This document shows positions 11,725-23,938 of a DNA stretch of 64,000 nt, one piece after another (positions within the stretch are counted from its first letter, which is position 1; each line of letters starts with the position of its first letter). The notes below the pieces were generated by a model. The model made no database searches. It saw only the letters and a list, made by a program, of their open reading frames with translations, and was not told where the DNA came from. This DNA comes from Chloroflexota bacterium (GTDB lineage Bacteria > Chloroflexota > Dehalococcoidia > Lucifugimonadales > UBA1127). Both the position numbers and the translations under genes were made by a program. The stretch spans positions 1 to 64,000 of the forward strand of contig JAPONS010000071.1 in NCBI GenBank assembly GCA_026713825.1, written 5' to 3'.

Positions 11725-13053
11725 CTACCTGTACACATCGACGTGCCGCACCAGCACGGACGTGAATTCCTCCCGCGCGGGCTCCCACTCGATAACGTAG
11801 GCGCCCCTGTTGCGCAGCTCCGTCGCCACATGGCGCGTTTCCCAGCGGGCGAGCCCCAGCCCCCGGGATGCCGCCGGGGCCTCCTGCGGTTCCACGTGCA
11901 CGACCCGCACGCGGCCGGAGCGGAGCGAGCGCGGCTTCAATGCGATCAGCCGGCTGATCGCGGTCTTGAATCGCTCGAATTCCGCCGAGTCCTCGCCGGG
12001 GCGCGTGTAGTGGACATCGAGGCGGGTGATGACGAAGACCTCCGGCCTGATTCGGTACAGGAAGCCCTTGCAGCGTTCCACCGACTGCAGGAGGTCCTGC
12101 TCCGGAGGACCCGGTTTCACGCCGGCCAGCATCTCCATCAGCCGGTTGAACTGCCGCATGCCGGTCTCAGGCGCGAGGATCTCGCCCGCGCCACCGGAGC
12201 CGTTGTAGGCGTAGGCGCCAAGGGTGGATCCCCTCGAAAGGTAGTACTGAGCGAGCGTGCCCGCGGCCTCCACGGTGCTTTCTAGGGGGTTCGATAACGG
12301 CAAGCCCACGTCCATGTAGTCGGCGATGTCCAGAAATATCCACACCGCCCGCTTGGTTTCCGGCTCCAGTTCGTTCACCAGCGGGAGATTGTTGACGCCC
12401 GCGTTCCGGGCGCTGGCCTTCCAGTTGATGCGCTTGAACGAGTCGCCGGGGTGGTACGGGCGGATCTCCTTGAACTCGTCCGTGGAAGCGCCGGTCTTGG
12501 CGAGGTCGTCCTGATAACGGCCGGTGCGGTGGACGGCGCGCACCTCATTGAGGCGCGTCACGTTGCGGATCCTTGGCACGACGGAGACCTCGAAGGCCGG
12601 TCCCCCCACGCCCAGGAGGCTTCGGCCGATGCCGAAGGGCGCCTGCGATTCCCAACCGGACTCGGGCAGCGTGTAGGCGCCTCGCCTGGGGAACCGCAGC
12701 CGATACGAGACGTCAGCGTCCAGTCTGCCGGGCCATTTCCAGACCACGCGCAGGTTGCTGCCCTCCACCAGCTCGGCCTCCGGGGGCAGCACGTCGTGAA
12801 TGAAGACAGGGCCGATGCCGTGCAGGGTTGTGAGCACACGCCGCACCGTCAGCGCATCACCGGCCCAGCAGGCGGCGCGGGACATTTCCCGCTTGACCCC
12901 GACGCTGGAGGGCGGCGCGAGGGCAGTCGTCAGCAGGACGGTGAGGAGGAGAAAGACGGCCCCGGTCAGCAGGAGCACGTTGCCCCATGAGAGGCCCAGC
13001 AACAGCAAAACCAGTGACAGCGCAATCCAGATGAGCTGCGACGACCTGGACAT
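11725..13053 (-). CDS. DUF58 domain protein
   Basis: A 442-residue protein with two N-terminal membrane helices (about 8-45) and a cytoplasmic or periplasmic body carrying the DUF58 signature YHPGDSFKRINWKASAR (about residues 198-214). The rest has a von Willebrand A-like fold in this family. DUF58 proteins are almost always encoded next to MoxR AAA+ ATPases and often beside TgpA-like transglutaminases, exactly as here, two bases after the MoxR stop. The family is thought to work with MoxR in assembling or regulating envelope complexes. The molecular role is not established. Confidence 0.9.
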   Translation of the reverse strand: MSRSSQLIWIALSLVLLLLGLSWGNVLLLTGAVFLLLTVLLTTALAPPSSVGVKREMSRAACWAGDALTVRRVLTTLHGIGPVFIHDVLPPEAELVEGSNLRVVWKWPGRLDADVSYRLRFPRRGAYTLPESGWESQAPFGIGRSLLGVGGPAFEVSVVPRIRNVTRLNEVRAVHRTGRYQDDLAKTGASTDEFKEIRPYHPGDSFKRINWKASARNAGVNNLPLVNELEPETKRAVWIFLDIADYMDVGLPLSNPLESTVEAAGTLAQYYLSRGSTLGAYAYNGSGGAGEILAPETGMRQFNRLMEMLAGVKPGPPEQDLLQSVERCKGFLYRIRPEVFVITRLDVHYTRPGEDSAEFERFKTAISRLIALKPRSLRSGRVRVVHVEPQEAPAASRGLGLARWETRHVATELRNRGAYVIEWEPAREEFTSVLVRHVDVYR

Positions 13054-13055
13054 CG

Positions 13056-14042
13056 CTAGCGGGCCATCCTTCCCATGTCGCTGGGCACGGGCACCTGCGC
13101 CAACACGTCGTCGACGACGGCCTCGCCGCGGGTGCCCTCCAGCGTGTCCTCGATGTTGAGGATGACGCGGTGAGCGAGGACATCGGGGACGACCATCTTC
13201 ACATCGTCCGGCACGACGAAGTCGCGGCCGTGGATGAGGGCGATGGACCTGGCGGCCCGGAGGAGGGCGAGTCCCCCGCGAGGGCTGGCGCCGACGGCCA
13301 CGCGTGGGTGCTCACGGGAGAGCCGGACGATCTGCGTGATGTACTCGACGATGACCTGGTCGGTGTAGACGCCGGTCTCCACGAAGCGCTGGAGATCTAC
13401 GAAGCGGCCAACGTCCACCGCAGGTTCCATGTCCTCAGTTGGGTCGTCCTTCTGCCACTGGATGCGCCGCAGCAGGATGTCGCTTTCAAGCTGGTCGTTG
13501 GCCGGGTAGCCGGTGGAGAGCTTGAGGAGGAAGCGGTCCAGTTGCGCCTCAGGCAGCGGGTAGGTGCCCTCCTGTTCGATGGGATTCTGCGTCGCAATGA
13601 CAACGAAGGGCGAGCCGAGGGACATGGTGTCCCCGTCAATGGTGACCTGACGCTCCTCCATCGACTCGAGCAGAGCGGACTGGGTCTTGGGGGGCGCGCG
13701 GTTGATCTCGTCGGCTAGGAGGACATTGGTGAACACCGGCCCCTGCATGAGCTGGAACGTGCCGTCGTTTTGCCGCCAGACGTTCATGCCGAGGATGTCG
13801 GAGGGCAGCAGGTCCGGGGTGAACTGGACGCGCTTGGTATCGCCGCCAATGGCACGGGCGAAGAGCTTGGCCAGGAGGGTCTTGCCGAGGCCGGGATAGT
13901 CCTCGAACAGGACGTGGCCGTTGGCGAGCCCGGCGGCCAGCAGCTTTCGCAGCATAAGACGATTGCCGACGAAGACCTCCGCGATACGGTCGATGATTCG
14001 CTCGCACGAGAGACGGGCCTCTTCCAGTTGTTGCTCGTTCAT
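13056..14042 (-). CDS. MoxR-type AAA+ ATPase
   Basis: A 328-residue cytoplasmic ATPase. Walker A is YPGLGKTLLAK (about residues 48-58), Walker B is LLADEINRAPPKTQ, and a sensor-1 region ATQNPIEQEGTYPLPEAQLDRF follows, typical of MoxR. MoxR proteins act as chaperone-like ATPases with VWA/DUF58 partners to mature protein complexes. Its gene lies between the 839-aa membrane protein (36-base gap) and the DUF58 gene (two-base gap), so the three should be translated from one mRNA. Confidence 0.93.
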   Translation of the reverse strand: MNEQQLEEARLSCERIIDRIAEVFVGNRLMLRKLLAAGLANGHVLFEDYPGLGKTLLAKLFARAIGGDTKRVQFTPDLLPSDILGMNVWRQNDGTFQLMQGPVFTNVLLADEINRAPPKTQSALLESMEERQVTIDGDTMSLGSPFVVIATQNPIEQEGTYPLPEAQLDRFLLKLSTGYPANDQLESDILLRRIQWQKDDPTEDMEPAVDVGRFVDLQRFVETGVYTDQVIVEYITQIVRLSREHPRVAVGASPRGGLALLRAARSIALIHGRDFVVPDDVKMVVPDVLAHRVILNIEDTLEGTRGEAVVDDVLAQVPVPSDMGRMAR

Positions 14043-14078: not shown

Positions 14079-16598
14079 TCAGTCGCCGGCGCCGGACGCT
14101 GCGACGACCTCGGCCAACCTTCTTGGGTCCAGGTTGGCGGAGGCGCGGGCCGCAGGGCTGAAGAGTGTTGCCGCGGTGTTGTCCACGAGCCGGACGCGCT
14201 CGTCCCGTTCGCGAGTCCGGGCGTTCGCGCGGGTCCAGGGCAGCAGGAACCACCCCGACTCCCGCTCCGGCATATCCAGGAGGTGAAGCCAGCGGTCTAT
14301 AGCGCTTTGCACGTCGAGGCCCTGCCCGCAATGCCCAACGATGAGGGCGATGACCAATCGCTCGGCATCGGCGCCGGTCTCGACGAAGAGGGCGGCGGCG
14401 GCGCGAAGGTCGGCCTCGTTGATGGACGGCAGTGGCGGTTGGCCGGAGGCCAGGGCACTGTCGGCGCGCCGCAGCGTCTCCTCCAGCGCGGCCACCCTGC
14501 CCATCCGCCGCAGGTTGCTGCGATCGAGGAACCGCATGGCAGCTGAGGAAACGGCGCTCGCTCGAATCGGGCGGAGGGTTGCGCGCATCTCCTCCAGGGA
14601 GACGCCATTCCGGTAAAGCAGGGCCATGAGGTATGACCAGAGAGGCTTCCACTCGCCGTAGTCCACAAACCGCCGGCGCATGGCGGAGGAGAGCGCGGAG
14701 CGGGGGTCGTCCTTGCTCTCCAGGACCTGGTGATGGCGCGTCCACTGGCCTGAGTCTGGCTCCTGCGCCTCGGGGACTGCGGTATCCCTTCGCAGGAGGT
14801 CCACCACGAAAAGCAGGGCCAGGAACAGGACCGCCAGCAGCGCAATGTACTCGTAGAGGGCGGCGAACCACAACGCCTCGTAGAGCACCGGGCGCAACAG
14901 GAGACCGTAGACCGCAAGGGCCGCCCCGAGAACCACGCCGCGCAGCCGCGAGACCGCGAGCCAACTTGCCATGGGGGCCAGGGCATTTTGCGACGCCGCG
15001 GCATAGCTGAACACCTGCGCGAGCCCCAGTGCAAACATGCCCGCGGCGCCGGCCGCGCCACCGAGAACAAATCCATGTCCCAGCGGTGAAAGCGACGACC
15101 CGACCACCCATACAAGGTACCCTGCGGCGCTGCAAGCGACGGCGTTCAACAGCGGCTGCCAGCGCGTGAAGACCCGGTCTTCCCGAGACCAGGGAAGGGT
15201 CAGCGCGAAGGCCATGGCGGCGCCAAGGGCCGCAGCGCTCACACGCACGTCGAATAGGGTCGCGAAGTAGGGTATCGCTTCGCGGCCGATGCTCCGCGTC
15301 GACTCGTTGTCGATGAGCGCGGCGTTGATGGCGGGCAAATGGTCCAGCACAACCCCCATCGACAACCCCGCAGCAAGGGCGGCGATCGAGGCCGCCGCCA
15401 ACGCGAGGACAACCGAGGCCGCGGGCCAGTATCGAAACTGCGAATCGGTCCGCGCAACATTACCCACGATCGAAGCGGCGTAGGAAAGCATGATCCCCAG
15501 GGCCAGCACAGCCATGACCTGCGGAACGCTCAACTGGACAGCGACCGCAAGGATGCCGCTGCCCGAGAACACCACGTACACGACACTCAGGAGCGCTAGG
15601 CGGACTACGGGGAACCCCAGGATGCGGTCCACCGGGGGCCAGAAAACACCACAGGCGCGCACCAGCGCGAAGGGCAGCAGCACGGCGAGGAGTTTCGGCG
15701 ACGTCAGCTCCCCCAAGCTCACCACGTACTCCGCTGCCCTGGCGGCGTCAAACCCAAAGTGGCCGGCAAGCACAGATTCGATCGCGGAGGGGAGCCCCGC
15801 CAACGCCTGCAGGGAGACGCTGACCCATGCGGCCTCGGCCAGCAGCAGCAAAGCTCGGAGCACGTTCGCCGTCTGCTGCCGGACCCGCTCCCTGAGAACG
15901 TTCCGCAGGGCCAACGCGCCATAGGACAGCGCCAACGCGGCGGCCAGGGCCGTCAGCAGCGGAGAGCCCTCGAAGCCGACAGCGACGTTCAGCACGCCGC
16001 CGTTGGACAGCAGGACGTAGCCGGATCCGAGGGTAACGAGCCGCCACCAGGGCATGGAAAGCGCCGCGCCAACGCCGGGGCGGACCTGGGCAATTGCGCG
16101 CAGGACGGCCACCAGTGTCATAAGGGGGAGTCCCCACATGGACATCGGGCCGAAAGCCGCAACGTAGGGCAGCGCGGCATCGGGCACCGGTCCGCTTTCG
16201 CGTTCGGCCAGGGCTTCCGTCATTGCGGGGACCGCAGCGATGAGCGCGAGGCCCAGTATGAACCACGCGAGGTCCGCTAGGAATCTCCTCGCAAAGGCCA
16301 GGGCGGCGGCGGCCCGCAGTTCATGGCCCGACCGGGTGGGCCTCCACAGCAGTGCTGCCAGCCTCGTACCGTCGGCCCGCGCGGCGAGACGGCTCAGCAG
16401 CGTCAGGACCGTCCACAGCGCGATAGGGGGGAAGAGGAAGTCCAGATCTATGCCGGACCAGGCGGAGAGCGGACTGGCCGTTCGCCAGAACAGGAAGAAT
16501 CCAGCCACCAGGACTCCCACCAGGAAGAGGGCGGTCAGCGGCAATCGGTACGAGGGTACGGCGGTTACCACAGCTACTCCTCCACCACGGCGTGCCAT
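14079..16598 (-). CDS. 839-residue polytopic membrane protein of the transglutaminase operon
   Basis: About 14 hydrophobic helices fill residues 15-600. The C-terminal ~230 residues are soluble and charged, with a helical region around SSAMRRRFVDYGEWKPLWSY and SLEEMRATLRPIRAS. I recognise no catalytic motif and no named family. Its start overlaps the end of the giant transglutaminase gene by 25 bases, implying translational coupling. The position between the transglutaminase and MoxR suggests it is part of the same membrane complex, perhaps a scaffold or a flippase-like channel. That last point is a guess. Confidence 0.8.
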   Translation of the reverse strand: MARRGGGVAVVTAVPSYRLPLTALFLVGVLVAGFFLFWRTASPLSAWSGIDLDFLFPPIALWTVLTLLSRLAARADGTRLAALLWRPTRSGHELRAAAALAFARRFLADLAWFILGLALIAAVPAMTEALAERESGPVPDAALPYVAAFGPMSMWGLPLMTLVAVLRAIAQVRPGVGAALSMPWWRLVTLGSGYVLLSNGGVLNVAVGFEGSPLLTALAAALALSYGALALRNVLRERVRQQTANVLRALLLLAEAAWVSVSLQALAGLPSAIESVLAGHFGFDAARAAEYVVSLGELTSPKLLAVLLPFALVRACGVFWPPVDRILGFPVVRLALLSVVYVVFSGSGILAVAVQLSVPQVMAVLALGIMLSYAASIVGNVARTDSQFRYWPAASVVLALAAASIAALAAGLSMGVVLDHLPAINAALIDNESTRSIGREAIPYFATLFDVRVSAAALGAAMAFALTLPWSREDRVFTRWQPLLNAVACSAAGYLVWVVGSSLSPLGHGFVLGGAAGAAGMFALGLAQVFSYAAASQNALAPMASWLAVSRLRGVVLGAALAVYGLLLRPVLYEALWFAALYEYIALLAVLFLALLFVVDLLRRDTAVPEAQEPDSGQWTRHHQVLESKDDPRSALSSAMRRRFVDYGEWKPLWSYLMALLYRNGVSLEEMRATLRPIRASAVSSAAMRFLDRSNLRRMGRVAALEETLRRADSALASGQPPLPSINEADLRAAAALFVETGADAERLVIALIVGHCGQGLDVQSAIDRWLHLLDMPERESGWFLLPWTRANARTRERDERVRLVDNTAATLFSPAARASANLDPRRLAEVVAASGAGD

Positions 16599-19500
16599 GC
16601 GCGGTACATGGACTCGTAATGCCGGCGGACGATGGGGTGTTCGCTGTAGTCGGCCTCCTCAAAGCGGGATATCAGCTCATCCAGGGGCTTCTGGGGCACG
16701 GGCAACTCCCGGGACACGAGCAACAGCTCGACTTCCCGAGGCGTCATCTGGTCAACGGACGTGTTGGTCCTGTTCGCCGCCCATTGCAGGAAGGCGTTGT
16801 ACAGCCGGACGATCTCCTCCCGGAAGTCCACGACGCGGAAAGTCCTGGAATCACTGGCCGGTAGGCAAGCCTGGTTCCCCGCAAGCTCCGCCGCAACCTG
16901 GTATTCGCCTGTATCGCTCGCTGTCCATTGGAGCGTGCTGGTCCCGTCGTCGCCCGCGACAAGCGACTGCGGCGGCTCGCCGGCCACGGACGCTTGGACC
17001 TCCGCCCCGGCGATGGGAACCCCATCACGGTCCGCGGCCGTTACGGAGACATCCACGTCCTCGCCGACTCCCCACACGTCCGGGATGTCCGCGGCAGGCT
17101 TGGCAAACGTTATGGTGAGCGCAACTCGGGTACGGGTCTCCGCCGAATCCTCATCCTTGACGTCTTCAACGCCGTCCCTCAGGGCTTCCTCGGAGACCGT
17201 CGCATCCTCGCGGCGCCGGGTGAGGACTCTCGGCAGCGGCACCAGGCGCATTCTGCTGCCCGCATAGCCGGCAACGGCAAGGGCGGCGGCGGCGCCGGGT
17301 GCGCCGGCCCACAGAAGCCAGTTGAATCCCCAAGGAGTCACCGGCACGCCGATGAAGTAGGTGAGGGGCATGTGCCGTTCGTCACCGTCATAGGTGAACG
17401 TGAGGGGGAGGGTAAGGGCCTCCTCGTCGTCCGGCACAGCGACTTCCAGCAGCGCGGCGCCGAGCCCGTCCGTGGTCAGTTGCGTTCCATCGTCCAAACG
17501 CAGACCGGCATTGCGAATGCTTCTCCGCCTGTCGTCCAGCAGTCGGACTTCCAGTTCCGCCAACTCACCGGGCCGCAGCTTGTCCATGGGGGTAACGGTA
17601 ACGCGGACGGCGGACTTTACCATGAAGGACGCGCTCGCGCTGACATCGAGGCCGGGAGCGGCGACCGTCAACTCGCCGGCCCCCAGCGGGGCGCTATCGG
17701 GCACCCGGTGGGTGTAGGAGAAGGTGCCCGTGGCGTCGGCCTGCACGGCGTCGCCCTCCACTGTCAATTCGATGCCCGACGCGGGGCGGGCGCCGAGCAG
17801 CGCTGTGCCGCGCAGCGTGACGGTATCGCCGCGCGCCACCGGCTCCAGCGGCTCCAGCAGAAGCCGCGGGACACCGACAACCACGTCGGTTGCGGCGGAG
17901 CTCGCCGCCAGGTGGTCGGTTCCGGAGAATGCGACCTCCACGACAAGCGGCGACTCATGGGCCGACTCCGATGCGGTCTCATCGAACAGCGCGACGGTCT
18001 CCCATCTGAAGCTGCCGTCGACGCCGGTCGTGAGGGTGAGCGGGATGTCTCCGACAACCTCCATCCGGGCGTCCCGCACGGGTTGCCCGTTGACGTCCCG
18101 CAGGGTCCCGGACACGGTGAGGCTCTCGCCGTCCCTGACGATGGCGGGCGCTTCCAGGCTGATCCACGTGGGCGCCAGCACGGAAAAGGTTAGGCGGGCG
18201 GAACTCGGGACGATGAAGTCGGCGCCGGGATACAGGACGGAGAGCGAGTGGGGCCCCGTCTGGAAGAAGGCTTCATGACGGTACTGAAATGCGCCGTCAT
18301 CGTCCGTGGTCACCGCGGCAAGCTCCTCCCCCGCGGCGTCGACGATCCTCAGCGTCGATTGACCGATGGGCGAGCCGTCGGCTTTGGCGAGGCGTCCGGC
18401 AAAACCGCCTCCGTCGCCGAGCTCGACTGTGCTGGGCCCCCCCAACGTGAGGAGCGCGGCCTCCCGCACAGCCACCCGCGCGATGGCCTGGGAGGCGAGG
18501 ATGGGGCCGTCGCCGGCATAGCCGGCGCGAACGGTGAAAGGCCCCGGCTCGTCGAGGATGCTCACGAGATCGAAGGCCCCATCCGCGTCTGTGGAGACCT
18601 GCTTCACAGGGAGATCGCCAACGCGGACTACGATGCTCCGGCCGGTAAGCGGCTCGCCGCGCACACCGCGCAGCGTTCCGGTGATGCGGAACTCTTCACC
18701 AACCTCCACGGAGACAGAGACATCGACGGCGGTCTCCGTGGGGAGCGTCACCTCGAAGTCGATGCGCGCTCTGTTGTCCAGCAGGAACGCCTGCCCTTTC
18801 AGCTCCACCTCAACCCAGTGGGGACCGGGGTCCGCGAAGGCCCGGGTGAACGTGAAGCGGCCGAAGTCGTCAGTCATGACGGGGTCCACGGCGCTGCCGT
18901 TCACTGCGACCGTAATTTCACGGTTTGACGCGCCTCGCCCGGTGTCCTCACTGAGCTTGCCCGTGAACACGGCTCCAACGTCCACCGGGATACTGGACGG
19001 GCCGGTCAATTGGAGGCCGGTCCCGGAATACACCGTGAGGTCAGGGTCGCTCCATGACTCATTAAAGCTGTCGTTCTCCACGGCGCGGGCCAGCAGCTGC
19101 CAGCCGCCCACCTCCAGGGACGGCGGCAATTGCACCTCCACGTCGTACCGGCCTTGGCGCGTCACCGTTTCGCCGATCTTCACGCCGCCATGCTCCTTGG
19201 TCTCGTTCACGTAGATCTCGACCTTCATGCCGTCGACAAACCTGCCGGTCGCGGTGTTCACCCAGCCGCCCACGGTGAAGGGCTGCTGTCTCCTGACGTC
19301 CGACGGCGACTGCGTGATAGTGGTGATGGTATCCAGCGGGCGGACGGGAATCTCCGGAACTTCGTCTTCCTCTTCCGCCAGCCGCGACGGCGCGGCGCCC
19401 GACGCAGTGGGCTCAAAGCTGATCCATCCCAGGCCTTCAAACGCCACTTCTGCCCACTGGTGGGCCTGCCAGGCATACACCGTCTGGATATCCGGGGTAG

Positions 19501-22500
19501 GGTTGATGACAAAGCCGGACACCACCCTTGCAGGAATGCCGATGGAGCGGGCCATGACCACAAAGACGCTGCTGAACACCCCGCAGGTGCCCTCCTTGTG
19601 GTCAAAGAGGAACCAATCGACGGGATCGCGTCCTTGCGGCAAGACATCCTCAGGGCCGTCGGCCAGTCGGTAGGGAAAGGTGGTGCTCAGGTACCGTTCC
19701 AGCGCCTTGGCCTTCTCATATGTCGACCGGTACTCTGCCGTTACCTCCAGCGCTAGCTCTCGAATGCGTTCCGGCATATCCGGTGGAAGCTGTAGGTACG
19801 TCGGATCCCTGGCGGCGAGGGCGCGGACGAGATATTCATCGGAAAAGCTCAGCGCATGCGACGTCCATTTGTATGCCGGGACAGTCTCACTGGACCGGAA
19901 TGTCCTGCTATAGGGGCGGTGCGCTCCCCGGAGCGAGATCGTTTGCAGGCCATTGGCAACCGGCACCACGCCGGGAAAAATGACGGCATCGTCCTGGATC
20001 GGAAACAGCGTAATCTCGTCTCTCCGTGACCTGTACTCCCACGGGTCTAGCCCTATGAACCCGAACAGAGAGGCATGACTCCGCCTCTCGAAGGGCACGT
20101 TTCTGAACTGGCTATCCGTGCTTGCATACTCCGCCCACACTGCATCGGGGACAACGGCGCCCAGAAGGATTCTTACGTCCACCGGGTCCAGTTGCCGCCA
20201 TCCGCCGTTCTCATACACGTCTCCCGTTGCCATACGCAAGTGGCCGGTGTTGGCGGCGCCAGCGACTTTGAATACCCGGCCCATAGGGAATTCCGATACC
20301 TGTGCGGTTGTGGTGCCTCCCGCAAAAGCCAGGTCCTCGCCGTCTTCCACAATCGCCGCGCCGTTCTCCAGCCGCACCACTTCCGCGCCTGATTCCTCCA
20401 ACGCCCGCAAGGCCTCCTCTAGCTCCTCCGGGTCACCCGTGGGCAGTCCTGCATCCGCCGCCCGCGCCTGCGGCCCGCCGGGGGTCGGTTCGAAGGCGAC
20501 CCAGCCGAGCCCCTCAAACGCCACCTCTGCCCATTGGTGGGCCTGGTCCGTGGAGACGGTCTGGCTGAAGGGCGTGGCGCTGATGGCCCAGCCCGAGACG
20601 ACCCTGGCGGGAAGTCCGATTGCGCGGGCAAGGAAGACGAACGCGCTGCTGAAGTTGCCGCATGTCCCCTCCTGTTCCACAAAGAGGAACCGCTCAACGG
20701 GATCTTGCACGTCGGGAGCCTTCAGTGCGTCTGATTTGTTTGCAAAGGCATAGTCATAGTTGGTCCGCAGATAGTCGGCGATCGCTTTGGCCTGGGCGTA
20801 GGGCGTCGGGTGACCAGCGGTGATTTGCGCGGCGAGGTCAAAGACTGGCCCGGTGCGCGCCCACTCCGGCAGGCTGGTGTACGGAGAATTGATTGGGACG
20901 GCTGCTTTGTCCGCCGACCGCAACTGCTCCTCGGAATAGCGATGGACCGCCGCGGTCCATGAGTAGCTCCTGACAGGGTATTCAAGCGCGAAAACACCGC
21001 TCTCCGGCAAGAACGTTCCGGGGACCTCCACCCTCTCCAGGTGCGCTGACGTCGGCACCAAGCCGGCCAGGACTCGTAGACTCACGATGGATGGGGGAGG
21101 TACGGGCACGACAGTGATGGTGTCCTGGTAAAGGATGTGGGGAGCGACGCTTGGCGAGATGGCCCCGTGCTGTACCTGCTGGTTGGACGAGTGCCGCAGC
21201 CGCGTCTGTGGTGCAGCAAGCCACTGCCCATCAACGTAGATGGCGCCGACTGCCGATCGCAGCAGTGTCGTGGATCTCGCGCCTGTCACCTGGAAGACGC
21301 CTTCCTTTTCCGGTCCCGCGCTTCGGAACGCAGTAGCGTCCGGGATGACCCCTACCAGATCCCCAAAACGGAGAATGCCCGCTCCGTTCTCCAGCCGGGT
21401 TATGGGGCCGTAGTTGTCCAGCGCTTCCCGGGCGGCGTTGCGGACCAACTCATCGGGGTCGCTTGACGCTATAGTAAGAGCGGGAACTGCGTTCAAACTA
21501 TGACGCGACCCTAACACCTCTGCGGCGGCGGCTCGCAGCGCAGGGTCAGGGTTATCCAGCAGGGTTGCCGCCAGGACGCTGGTCTCCCACCTGGCCAGCG
21601 CTTTCCTGGCAGCGCTCTGGACGCTCTGCTCTGGGTCGGTTGTCAAGACGTCCAACAGAGGCGGCAGGGTAACGGCCACCTGAAGCTCTCCCATCGTCTG
21701 CGCAGCGGCGGTGCGGACATCCGTGTCGGGGTCGGTGCGGAGCACGGCAACCAGGCCCTCCGCAGTCCAGCGTGCCTTCCGCTCGCCGAGTCCGAGAACG
21801 GAGACCTCCCGGACGACAGCTTCTTCATCAGCAAGCGCCGCGTCCAGCAGTCCTTGCTCAGCCTTCTCGCCGCCGATCTGCACCAGGGCCCCCGCTGACG
21901 CTAAGCGGACCCGTGCTTCCATGTCGGTGGACAGGGCCTGGCGAAGCGCCTCCACGACCCTGTACGTTCCGGCCAGCCTGAGGCCGTTTGCCGCGGCCTC
22001 GCGGACGACCGGGTCCTCGTGGTTCAGGAGCAGCCGGATCAGCTCGTCGACACCGATCTTGTGGATCGCGGTTTCGGCGGCCAGCCGGACCGCCAGCGAC
22101 TCGTCGCTTTCTGCGGCTTCGATCAGTGCGGGCAGCGCCTCCGGTTCATCGAGATCGCCCAGGGACTCGGCAGCCTCCTCCCTGGCCTTCGCGTCGTCAC
22201 TGGATTCCAACTCCTCCACCAGGGTTGGGAGTGGTTCAGCTTCCGTTTCAGGGGGGAAGGCGTCTATAAGGGTTGGGTCGAAGCGCACCCATCCGATGCC
22301 GTGCAGCGCGATTTCCGCCCATTGGTGCGCCTGGTCGGCGTTGACAACCTGGGGTCCCGCAGCAGCTTCAATGGCCCAACCGGCCACGACCCTCGCCGGG
22401 ATGCCCGCAGCCCGGGCCAATATGGCGAATGCGCTGCTGAAATGGCTGCTGTCTCCCCAGCGGCGCTCAAAGAGGAACCAGTCGACCGGGTCATGCCCGG

Positions 22501-22699
22501 CGGGGCGCTCTCTGGCGACCCCTCCATCCTCCGGTTTGGCGTACGCAAAGTTCTCCCGCAAATACGAGTGAATCCGGATAGCCCGAATGTACGGGGACTC
22601 GTCCGTATCGAACTGCCCGGCAAGCTCCAGCACGCGGGACGGGAGGTCTTCCGGCAACTGAAGGTAGGCGGAATCAGCGGCGGGAGCGGCCGCGAACAT
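16574..22699 (-). CDS. Giant transglutaminase protein body: 3 TGase modules, HEAT repeats, Ig-like domains, DUF4129
   Basis: The first ATG after an in-frame TAG (22730-22732) is at 22697-22699, giving 2041 residues, but the frame is continuous with the upstream 402-residue product. Layout: TGase module 1 (to about 145) with Ser84 where Cys is expected, His125 and Asp141; HEAT-like repeats (about 165-430); beta domain; TGase 2 with Cys680, His721, Glu737; beta domain; TGase 3 with Cys1039, His1080, Glu1096; a run of Ig-like beta domains (about 1120-1750); one membrane helix (about 1785-1805); another Ig-like domain; and a C-terminal DUF4129-like helical region. TgpA relatives are extracytoplasmic, membrane-anchored transglutaminase or protease-like enzymes. 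Without the upstream head this product has no export signal. Confidence 0.85.
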   Translation of the reverse strand: MFAAAPAADSAYLQLPEDLPSRVLELAGQFDTDESPYIRAIRIHSYLRENFAYAKPEDGGVARERPAGHDPVDWFLFERRWGDSSHFSSAFAILARAAGIPARVVAGWAIEAAAGPQVVNADQAHQWAEIALHGIGWVRFDPTLIDAFPPETEAEPLPTLVEELESSDDAKAREEAAESLGDLDEPEALPALIEAAESDESLAVRLAAETAIHKIGVDELIRLLLNHEDPVVREAAANGLRLAGTYRVVEALRQALSTDMEARVRLASAGALVQIGGEKAEQGLLDAALADEEAVVREVSVLGLGERKARWTAEGLVAVLRTDPDTDVRTAAAQTMGELQVAVTLPPLLDVLTTDPEQSVQSAARKALARWETSVLAATLLDNPDPALRAAAAEVLGSRHSLNAVPALTIASSDPDELVRNAAREALDNYGPITRLENGAGILRFGDLVGVIPDATAFRSAGPEKEGVFQVTGARSTTLLRSAVGAIYVDGQWLAAPQTRLRHSSNQQVQHGAISPSVAPHILYQDTITVVPVPPPSIVSLRVLAGLVPTSAHLERVEVPGTFLPESGVFALEYPVRSYSWTAAVHRYSEEQLRSADKAAVPINSPYTSLPEWARTGPVFDLAAQITAGHPTPYAQAKAIADYLRTNYDYAFANKSDALKAPDVQDPVERFLFVEQEGTCGNFSSAFVFLARAIGLPARVVSGWAISATPFSQTVSTDQAHQWAEVAFEGLGWVAFEPTPGGPQARAADAGLPTGDPEELEEALRALEESGAEVVRLENGAAIVEDGEDLAFAGGTTTAQVSEFPMGRVFKVAGAANTGHLRMATGDVYENGGWRQLDPVDVRILLGAVVPDAVWAEYASTDSQFRNVPFERRSHASLFGFIGLDPWEYRSRRDEITLFPIQDDAVIFPGVVPVANGLQTISLRGAHRPYSRTFRSSETVPAYKWTSHALSFSDEYLVRALAARDPTYLQLPPDMPERIRELALEVTAEYRSTYEKAKALERYLSTTFPYRLADGPEDVLPQGRDPVDWFLFDHKEGTCGVFSSVFVVMARSIGIPARVVSGFVINPTPDIQTVYAWQAHQWAEVAFEGLGWISFEPTASGAAPSRLAEEEDEVPEIPVRPLDTITTITQSPSDVRRQQPFTVGGWVNTATGRFVDGMKVEIYVNETKEHGGVKIGETVTRQGRYDVEVQLPPSLEVGGWQLLARAVENDSFNESWSDPDLTVYSGTGLQLTGPSSIPVDVGAVFTGKLSEDTGRGASNREITVAVNGSAVDPVMTDDFGRFTFTRAFADPGPHWVEVELKGQAFLLDNRARIDFEVTLPTETAVDVSVSVEVGEEFRITGTLRGVRGEPLTGRSIVVRVGDLPVKQVSTDADGAFDLVSILDEPGPFTVRAGYAGDGPILASQAIARVAVREAALLTLGGPSTVELGDGGGFAGRLAKADGSPIGQSTLRIVDAAGEELAAVTTDDDGAFQYRHEAFFQTGPHSLSVLYPGADFIVPSSARLTFSVLAPTWISLEAPAIVRDGESLTVSGTLRDVNGQPVRDARMEVVGDIPLTLTTGVDGSFRWETVALFDETASESAHESPLVVEVAFSGTDHLAASSAATDVVVGVPRLLLEPLEPVARGDTVTLRGTALLGARPASGIELTVEGDAVQADATGTFSYTHRVPDSAPLGAGELTVAAPGLDVSASASFMVKSAVRVTVTPMDKLRPGELAELEVRLLDDRRRSIRNAGLRLDDGTQLTTDGLGAALLEVAVPDDEEALTLPLTFTYDGDERHMPLTYFIGVPVTPWGFNWLLWAGAPGAAAALAVAGYAGSRMRLVPLPRVLTRRREDATVSEEALRDGVEDVKDEDSAETRTRVALTITFAKPAADIPDVWGVGEDVDVSVTAADRDGVPIAGAEVQASVAGEPPQSLVAGDDGTSTLQWTASDTGEYQVAAELAGNQACLPASDSRTFRVVDFREEIVRLYNAFLQWAANRTNTSVDQMTPREVELLLVSRELPVPQKPLDELISRFEEADYSEHPIVRRHYESMYRAWHAVVEE

Positions 22700-22729
22700 A
22701 TCGTCTGGCGCAAAGCGGGGGAGGGTGGT

Positions 22730-22732
22730 CTA
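22730..22732 (-). other. In-frame amber codon splitting the transglutaminase reading frame
   Basis: TAG lies between SYRL and TTLPRF. No frameshift is present: coding resumes in the same frame. In the two internal paralogous modules the aligned codon specifies Thr (SYSW-T and AYKW-T). Confidence 0.85.
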
Positions 22733-23938
22733 AAGCCGGTAGCTGCCGGTGGGCGCCGGGACACTCAGGGTGGCGCTGAATGGATGGAAGGAGACCGGGA
22801 CGTCCACCTTGAAGAGGAATTCCGTGCTTGGCACGCTGCCCGCGCTGAACACGCCACCCTCCAAGTATGGGGTGACGACGATCACGTCCGGCACCAGATC
22901 GGCGGGCTCAACGGTCGGGTAGACCAGCAGCGCCCTGTCCAACCGTTCCGGCGGCAGACCGCCCGCATCAGCGGCCCGCAGCTGCTCCAGCGCAGCCAGC
23001 ACGTTGTCGGGCACCAGGCTGTCCTTGTCGGCTGGGAGGAAGCCGGGGTCAACCTGCGTCCAGACCCCGTTTTCATACACGTCGCCCGTCGCGGTCCGGA
23101 GATAGCGGGTGTGGAACGCGCCGGAAACCCAGAACACCGGCAGCGGATCGGGCGATTCCGACAGGTCCGCCGTGACGGATGGGGCGACGACGGCGCTTAC
23201 CCCCGGCGGCTGTGGGGCTTCAGCTTCACCGTGCGTCTCGGGGTCCGGATTCGCTTCCTCAACCAGGGGGGCGTCCGTCCTCTGGTGCCGCTCGATAACG
23301 TCCGTGTACTCGGAAGGCGCTTCGAGCAATGACGGGCGCTCAAAGAGGTACAGGCCGTCCACGGGCCGCGTGTCGAAGAGGCCAACAGCAGAGGCGGCAG
23401 CCAGCCAGGCTATAACGACAAGCGCCAGCGCATACCGGTTGATAAACCCGGCGATGATGAGCGTCAGAAACACCACCGCCACTAGGGCTAGGGCGCCCGA
23501 CTCCAGGAAGGAGCGATAGACCGTGTGCTCGCTGTAGCCGATATCGCGCCCCACGACACCGGAGAAGGCGAGATACGCTCCCGCGCCCGCGATGGCAAGG
23601 GCGCCCAGAGCGCCTGCGGCAAGGGGCAGGGAGGGCCTGAATAGAGCCTTGGCAGGTCGCCGTCCGATCGCCGCAATGAACACCGCAAGGGCCAGGACCA
23701 CGGATACGCCGAGGACCGCCGCTTCAAGCATGCCGACGCCGTTAGGCAGCCCGACGGTTTCTTCCTGAAAGGGAGTCGTCGCAAGAATGTCACCGGGACC
23801 TGAGGAAAGCAGGGAGACCAGGAACTCAAGAAGGAGAAAAAACCCGGCCAACGCCGTCATGAGTATGAGGAGCAGCCTGGCTTGACGCACCAGGGACCTG
23901 GACATCGGCACAGATAGGCTTGTACTCAGCCATTGCAT
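22730..23938 (-). CDS. Membrane head of the TgpA-like transglutaminase protein, ended by an in-frame TAG
   Basis: A 402-residue product with four or five N-terminal helices (about residues 17-210) and then a periplasmic beta domain. That domain contains TRYLRTATGDVYENGVW, matched in the downstream body by LRMATGDVYENGGW. It ends SYRL-TAG. The bases after the TAG continue in the same frame into sequence that aligns without gaps to the equivalent part of module 2 in the next product (SYSWTAAVHRY). So this is probably the front of a single ~2454-residue protein. A second ATG at residue 12 (23905) could be the start. It is the first gene of the operon. Confidence 0.8.
   Translation of the reverse strand: MQWLSTSLSVPMSRSLVRQARLLLILMTALAGFFLLLEFLVSLLSSGPGDILATTPFQEETVGLPNGVGMLEAAVLGVSVVLALAVFIAAIGRRPAKALFRPSLPLAAGALGALAIAGAGAYLAFSGVVGRDIGYSEHTVYRSFLESGALALVAVVFLTLIIAGFINRYALALVVIAWLAAASAVGLFDTRPVDGLYLFERPSLLEAPSEYTDVIERHQRTDAPLVEEANPDPETHGEAEAPQPPGVSAVVAPSVTADLSESPDPLPVFWVSGAFHTRYLRTATGDVYENGVWTQVDPGFLPADKDSLVPDNVLAALEQLRAADAGGLPPERLDRALLVYPTVEPADLVPDVIVVTPYLEGGVFSAGSVPSTEFLFKVDVPVSFHPFSATLSVPAPTGSYRL

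Follow-up and report, generated by a model that had tools for sequence, protein, structure and literature searches.

The window analysed here is a stretch of 64,000 nucleotides in contig C71 of a draft, metagenome-type Chloroflexota assembly (2.64 Mb, 114 contigs, 96% complete). From 23938 to 16574, its minus strand carries a frame of 2,454 codons that is open apart from a TAG at 22732-22730, codon 403 of the joint frame. Counted with its terminator (2,455 codons), this frame is stopped only at codon 403 and at the natural terminator, with no frameshift, and the rest of the gene bears no other damage. About 61 stops would be expected in a random frame of equal composition, and 24-84 are seen in the other five frames, so that a single internal stop indicates that the coding character on both sides is not due to chance. 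This bears out the initial annotation, which had read the TAG as in frame with coding continuing on either side of it. The TAG closes an open reading frame of 402 amino acids (23938-22730, minus strand; the head proper spans 22733-23938). On its 3′ side lies a body of 2,051 codons (16574-22729, minus strand), which yields an open reading frame of 2,041 amino acids when counted from the first ATG (22699-16574), and a second TAG ends the gene. A single stop thus cuts a 2,454-codon membrane transglutaminase-type gene after its membrane anchor.

The head comprises the N-terminal membrane segments and the first half of the beta-domain of module 1, and it is orthologous to the N-termini of the corresponding proteins of G002 and G001. 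Its predicted membrane segments occupy approximately residues 16-167, all upstream of the stop, in agreement with the earlier statement that the body is left with no membrane head; a match to DUF3488 was not returned by Pfam for the head. On the 3′ side of the stop, Pfam identifies three Transglut_core domains, HEAT repeats, Ig-like domains and a C-terminal DUF4129. The features succeed one another on the minus strand as the interrupted TgpA-like module 1, in which the catalytic Cys is replaced by Ser (22250-23143); a HEAT-repeat insertion supported by Pfam matches, with approximate limits (21680-22183); TgpA-like modules 2 (20474-21301) and 3 (19397-20281), the only ones in which the Cys-His catalytic residues are present; a Pfam-defined Ig-like and carboxypeptidase-regulatory-like region (16868-19273); and the DUF4129 domain (16595-16804). 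The end of the gene is overlapped by a gene of the same cassette encoding an 839-aa membrane protein (14079-16598), beyond which lie genes for a MoxR-type AAA ATPase (13056-14042) and a DUF58 protein (11725-13053), all on the minus strand.

MoxR and DUF58 genes are associated with TgpA loci, and both are found as neighbours here. With a membrane head, Transglut_core, DUF4129 and the MoxR-DUF58 neighbourhood, the ancestral gene displays the features of the TgpA-like family. It shares with TgpA of Pseudomonas aeruginosa (PA2873; PDB 6g49; PMC3507681) the N-terminal membrane head and the extracytoplasmic transglutaminase domain, yet it differs in having three transglutaminase modules, a HEAT insertion, a long Ig-like region and a module 1 devoid of the catalytic Cys. 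It is also enlarged about 3.5-fold, to approximately 2,454 residues against the 688 of TgpA. The two other transglutaminase-core genes of the genome, with frames of 917 codons (an ordinary TgpA-sized copy) and 321 codons, are not copies of the interrupted gene, and a scan of viral contigs for further copies found none.

The segment around the stop had been described as matching the equivalent part of module 2 without gaps, and both the translation (SYRL-stop-TTLPRF against SYSWTAAVHRY) and the module alignment agree with this. The initial annotation had further placed the stop in the middle of a conserved domain and called the body catalytic. The interruption does fall in the middle of a domain, and the body does carry modules 2 and 3, but module 1 itself is non-catalytic. 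Its catalytic Cys is replaced in all seven orthologues compared (the window gene, L018, L068, L019, L021, L022 and L024), by Ser in five of them, by Gly in L019 and by Ala in L024, while the His is kept; in modules 2 and 3, GTC is kept wherever aligned. Because the Cys is gone from all seven, module 1 appears to have been non-catalytic before the stop arose. Judged from these alignments, the interrupted module is a lineage-wide pseudo-transglutaminase that long predates the stop, and its role is probably structural. For the orthologous module 1 of L018, an AlphaFold model (mean pLDDT 89) finds its best PDB match in 6g49, the periplasmic domain of TgpA, which module 2 matches by sequence.

The gene is uninterrupted at the stop position in six orthologues, those of G002 and G001, which belong to the same genus, and of L019, L021, L022 and L024. 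The residue found there is Glu in four of them, Arg in one and Val in the distant L024. Five of the six have full frames, of 2,346-2,473 codons: 2,461 codons in G002 (59% identity), 2,468 in G001 (52% identity), and 2,473, 2,346 and 2,394 in L019, L021 and L024, respectively. L022 was considered as a second broken orthologue and rejected, its break being a run of N further on. An alignment of 2,470 columns with an intact protein of the same genus runs through the stop at 58% identity. When 250 genomes of the order were scanned, one other gene among the matches listed had an in-frame stop (a TAA, in G011). The cassette occurs in three of five genus members; the transglutaminase and 839-aa genes are both absent from G003 and G004, which makes it accessory, and dispensable in this genus. 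On sequence comparison, the region 14079-23938 is a fast-evolving accessory cassette. The mega-transglutaminase and 839-aa genes that it contains are 52-58% identical to those of G002, and most neighbouring genes are 75-99% identical. In G002, the comparison also marked a TAG in the 839-aa gene; it was set aside because it sits at the extreme edge of the match and seems to terminate the gene before.

The nearest relative being only 59% identical, dN/dS at close range was replaced by a relative-rate count. At columns invariant in the other orthologues, changes found only in the window gene number 16 before the stop and 61 after it; the same count for the sister genome gives 9 and 48. There is thus no excess of change after the stop relative to the sister, which argues against a long decay and indicates that the stop is either recent or not real. 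A survey of in-frame stops, in which 57 matches with 24,801 aligned residues were accepted, compared the window and about 0.4 Mb more of its assembly with 0.4 Mb of G002. Most stops of the raw survey were rejected as lying in antisense frames or in stretches before starts or after ends, the best frame being kept for each place and the rest checked. Two mid-gene in-frame stops emerged, the TAG described here and a TGA (L117:14958-14960) in a Replic_Relax-type gene (L117:13860-15614, G000:C8), whose homologues in G002 and G001 run without a break. The transglutaminase gene is therefore not the only accessory gene with a lone nonsense codon, and the second being a different codon argues against TAG-specific recoding.

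In this organism, TAG signals termination: RF1 (PVT motif) is present alongside RF2 (SPF motif), no tRNA with a CUA anticodon is among the tRNAs found in the 96% complete assembly, and TAG terminates 23 of the 41 genes for which the end was compared with a relative, in addition to the interrupted gene itself. This usage, with TAG as the commonest terminator among the checked genes of the window, is unusual for bacteria, which commonly prefer TAA or TGA. Regulated read-through or recoding of the TAG, yielding small amounts of the full-length protein, could account for the frame remaining intact beyond the stop, and it has been argued that a bacterial gene with an in-frame stop is often no pseudogene (Belinky et al. 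2021, PMC7918605). According to the same study, however, such stops are mostly short-lived. Programmed read-through would moreover be marked by an in-frame stop conserved in orthologues, and none shares this one. Neither a suppressor tRNA nor PylS was detected in the genome, again at 96% completeness, and the sequence after the stop folds no better than its shuffles (z = -0.53), arguing against a stimulatory RNA structure. With RF1 present and TAG the prevailing terminator nearby, read-through is a most improbable explanation. The alternative of a genuine split, in which translation would yield a 402-aa head and, by a restart at ATG 22699, a 2,041-aa body that cooperates with it, draws on the retention of coding character in both halves and on the position of this first ATG (22697-22699, minus strand), 30 bases past the stop and near enough for re-initiation. 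Yet relatives have Ile, Val or Lys at that site, no purine-rich or Shine-Dalgarno-like sequence is evident before it, and the one promoter-like site in the scan, a weak one, lies upstream of the head; the same scan yielded no terminator-like site. A split pair would be expected to show a conserved start with a ribosome-binding site and a cut between domains. Here, the stop corresponds to index 138 in the model of module 1, within strand 135-143 (mean pLDDT 97 in the block), which places it inside a predicted beta-strand of the TgpA-like domain and not in a linker. The body would also lack a membrane head, and no relative is divided at this point into two separate start-stop genes, the arrangement that the initial annotation had named as the mark of a true split. 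A split gene is accordingly very unlikely. It is highly improbable that the amber codon serves as a switch in a protein whose first module was already a pseudo-transglutaminase, with the amount of body attached to the membrane head, or produced alongside it, being set by leaky read-through or by re-initiation. The read-through and two-product options raised at the outset thus found no support.

A recent, genome-specific nonsense mutation inactivating an accessory gene is, on balance, the probable explanation, which supposes both that the base is real and that function is lost. As in nonsense pseudogenes, intact orthologues carry a sense codon at the site. The case resembles the ordinary recent pseudogenes discussed by Belinky et al. 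(PMC7918605) in that one in-frame stop of recent origin interrupts an accessory gene whose frame is intact on either side. It differs from the stops retained in that study, where artefacts were limited by requiring that orthologues share the in-frame stop: found in no second genome, the present stop does not pass that filter. The main rival is an error of sequencing, assembly or strain consensus, possibly from a minority strain, in which case the organism would have a sense codon and an intact protein of 2,454 residues. The draft, metagenome-type nature of the assembly with its 114 contigs, the single interruption in an otherwise undamaged gene and the intactness of all relatives are consistent with such an error. 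It is, however, uncommon for an assembled consensus to contain a lone wrong base, and the second in-frame stop of the assembly, in a mobile-type gene, fits ordinary pseudogenes, although it could itself be an error. A consensus error is therefore a possible but rather unlikely account. The initial annotation had proposed that a sense codon in all relatives would denote an error; the sense codon is indeed there in the six orthologues, and a recent, real nonsense mutation fits it equally well.

Under the nonsense mutation, the accessory TgpA-like triple-transglutaminase gene would be cut at codon 403, where RF1 would terminate translation and leave a 402-residue fragment containing the membrane helices and one half of a beta-domain. 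The 2,051 codons beyond the stop would lose their membrane head, and any product of a chance restart would begin inside the broken domain and probably stay cytoplasmic. Most likely, the gene is inactive in this genome and leaves a headless, probably non-functional body; translation of the overlapping 839-aa gene may also be reduced through polarity. The locus would best be annotated as one interrupted gene, and neither as a head gene followed by a headless enzyme nor as evidence of recoding. Beyond annotation, the stop would have little significance. Somewhat more interesting is the family itself, in which a first transglutaminase module without Cys precedes two modules that contain it.
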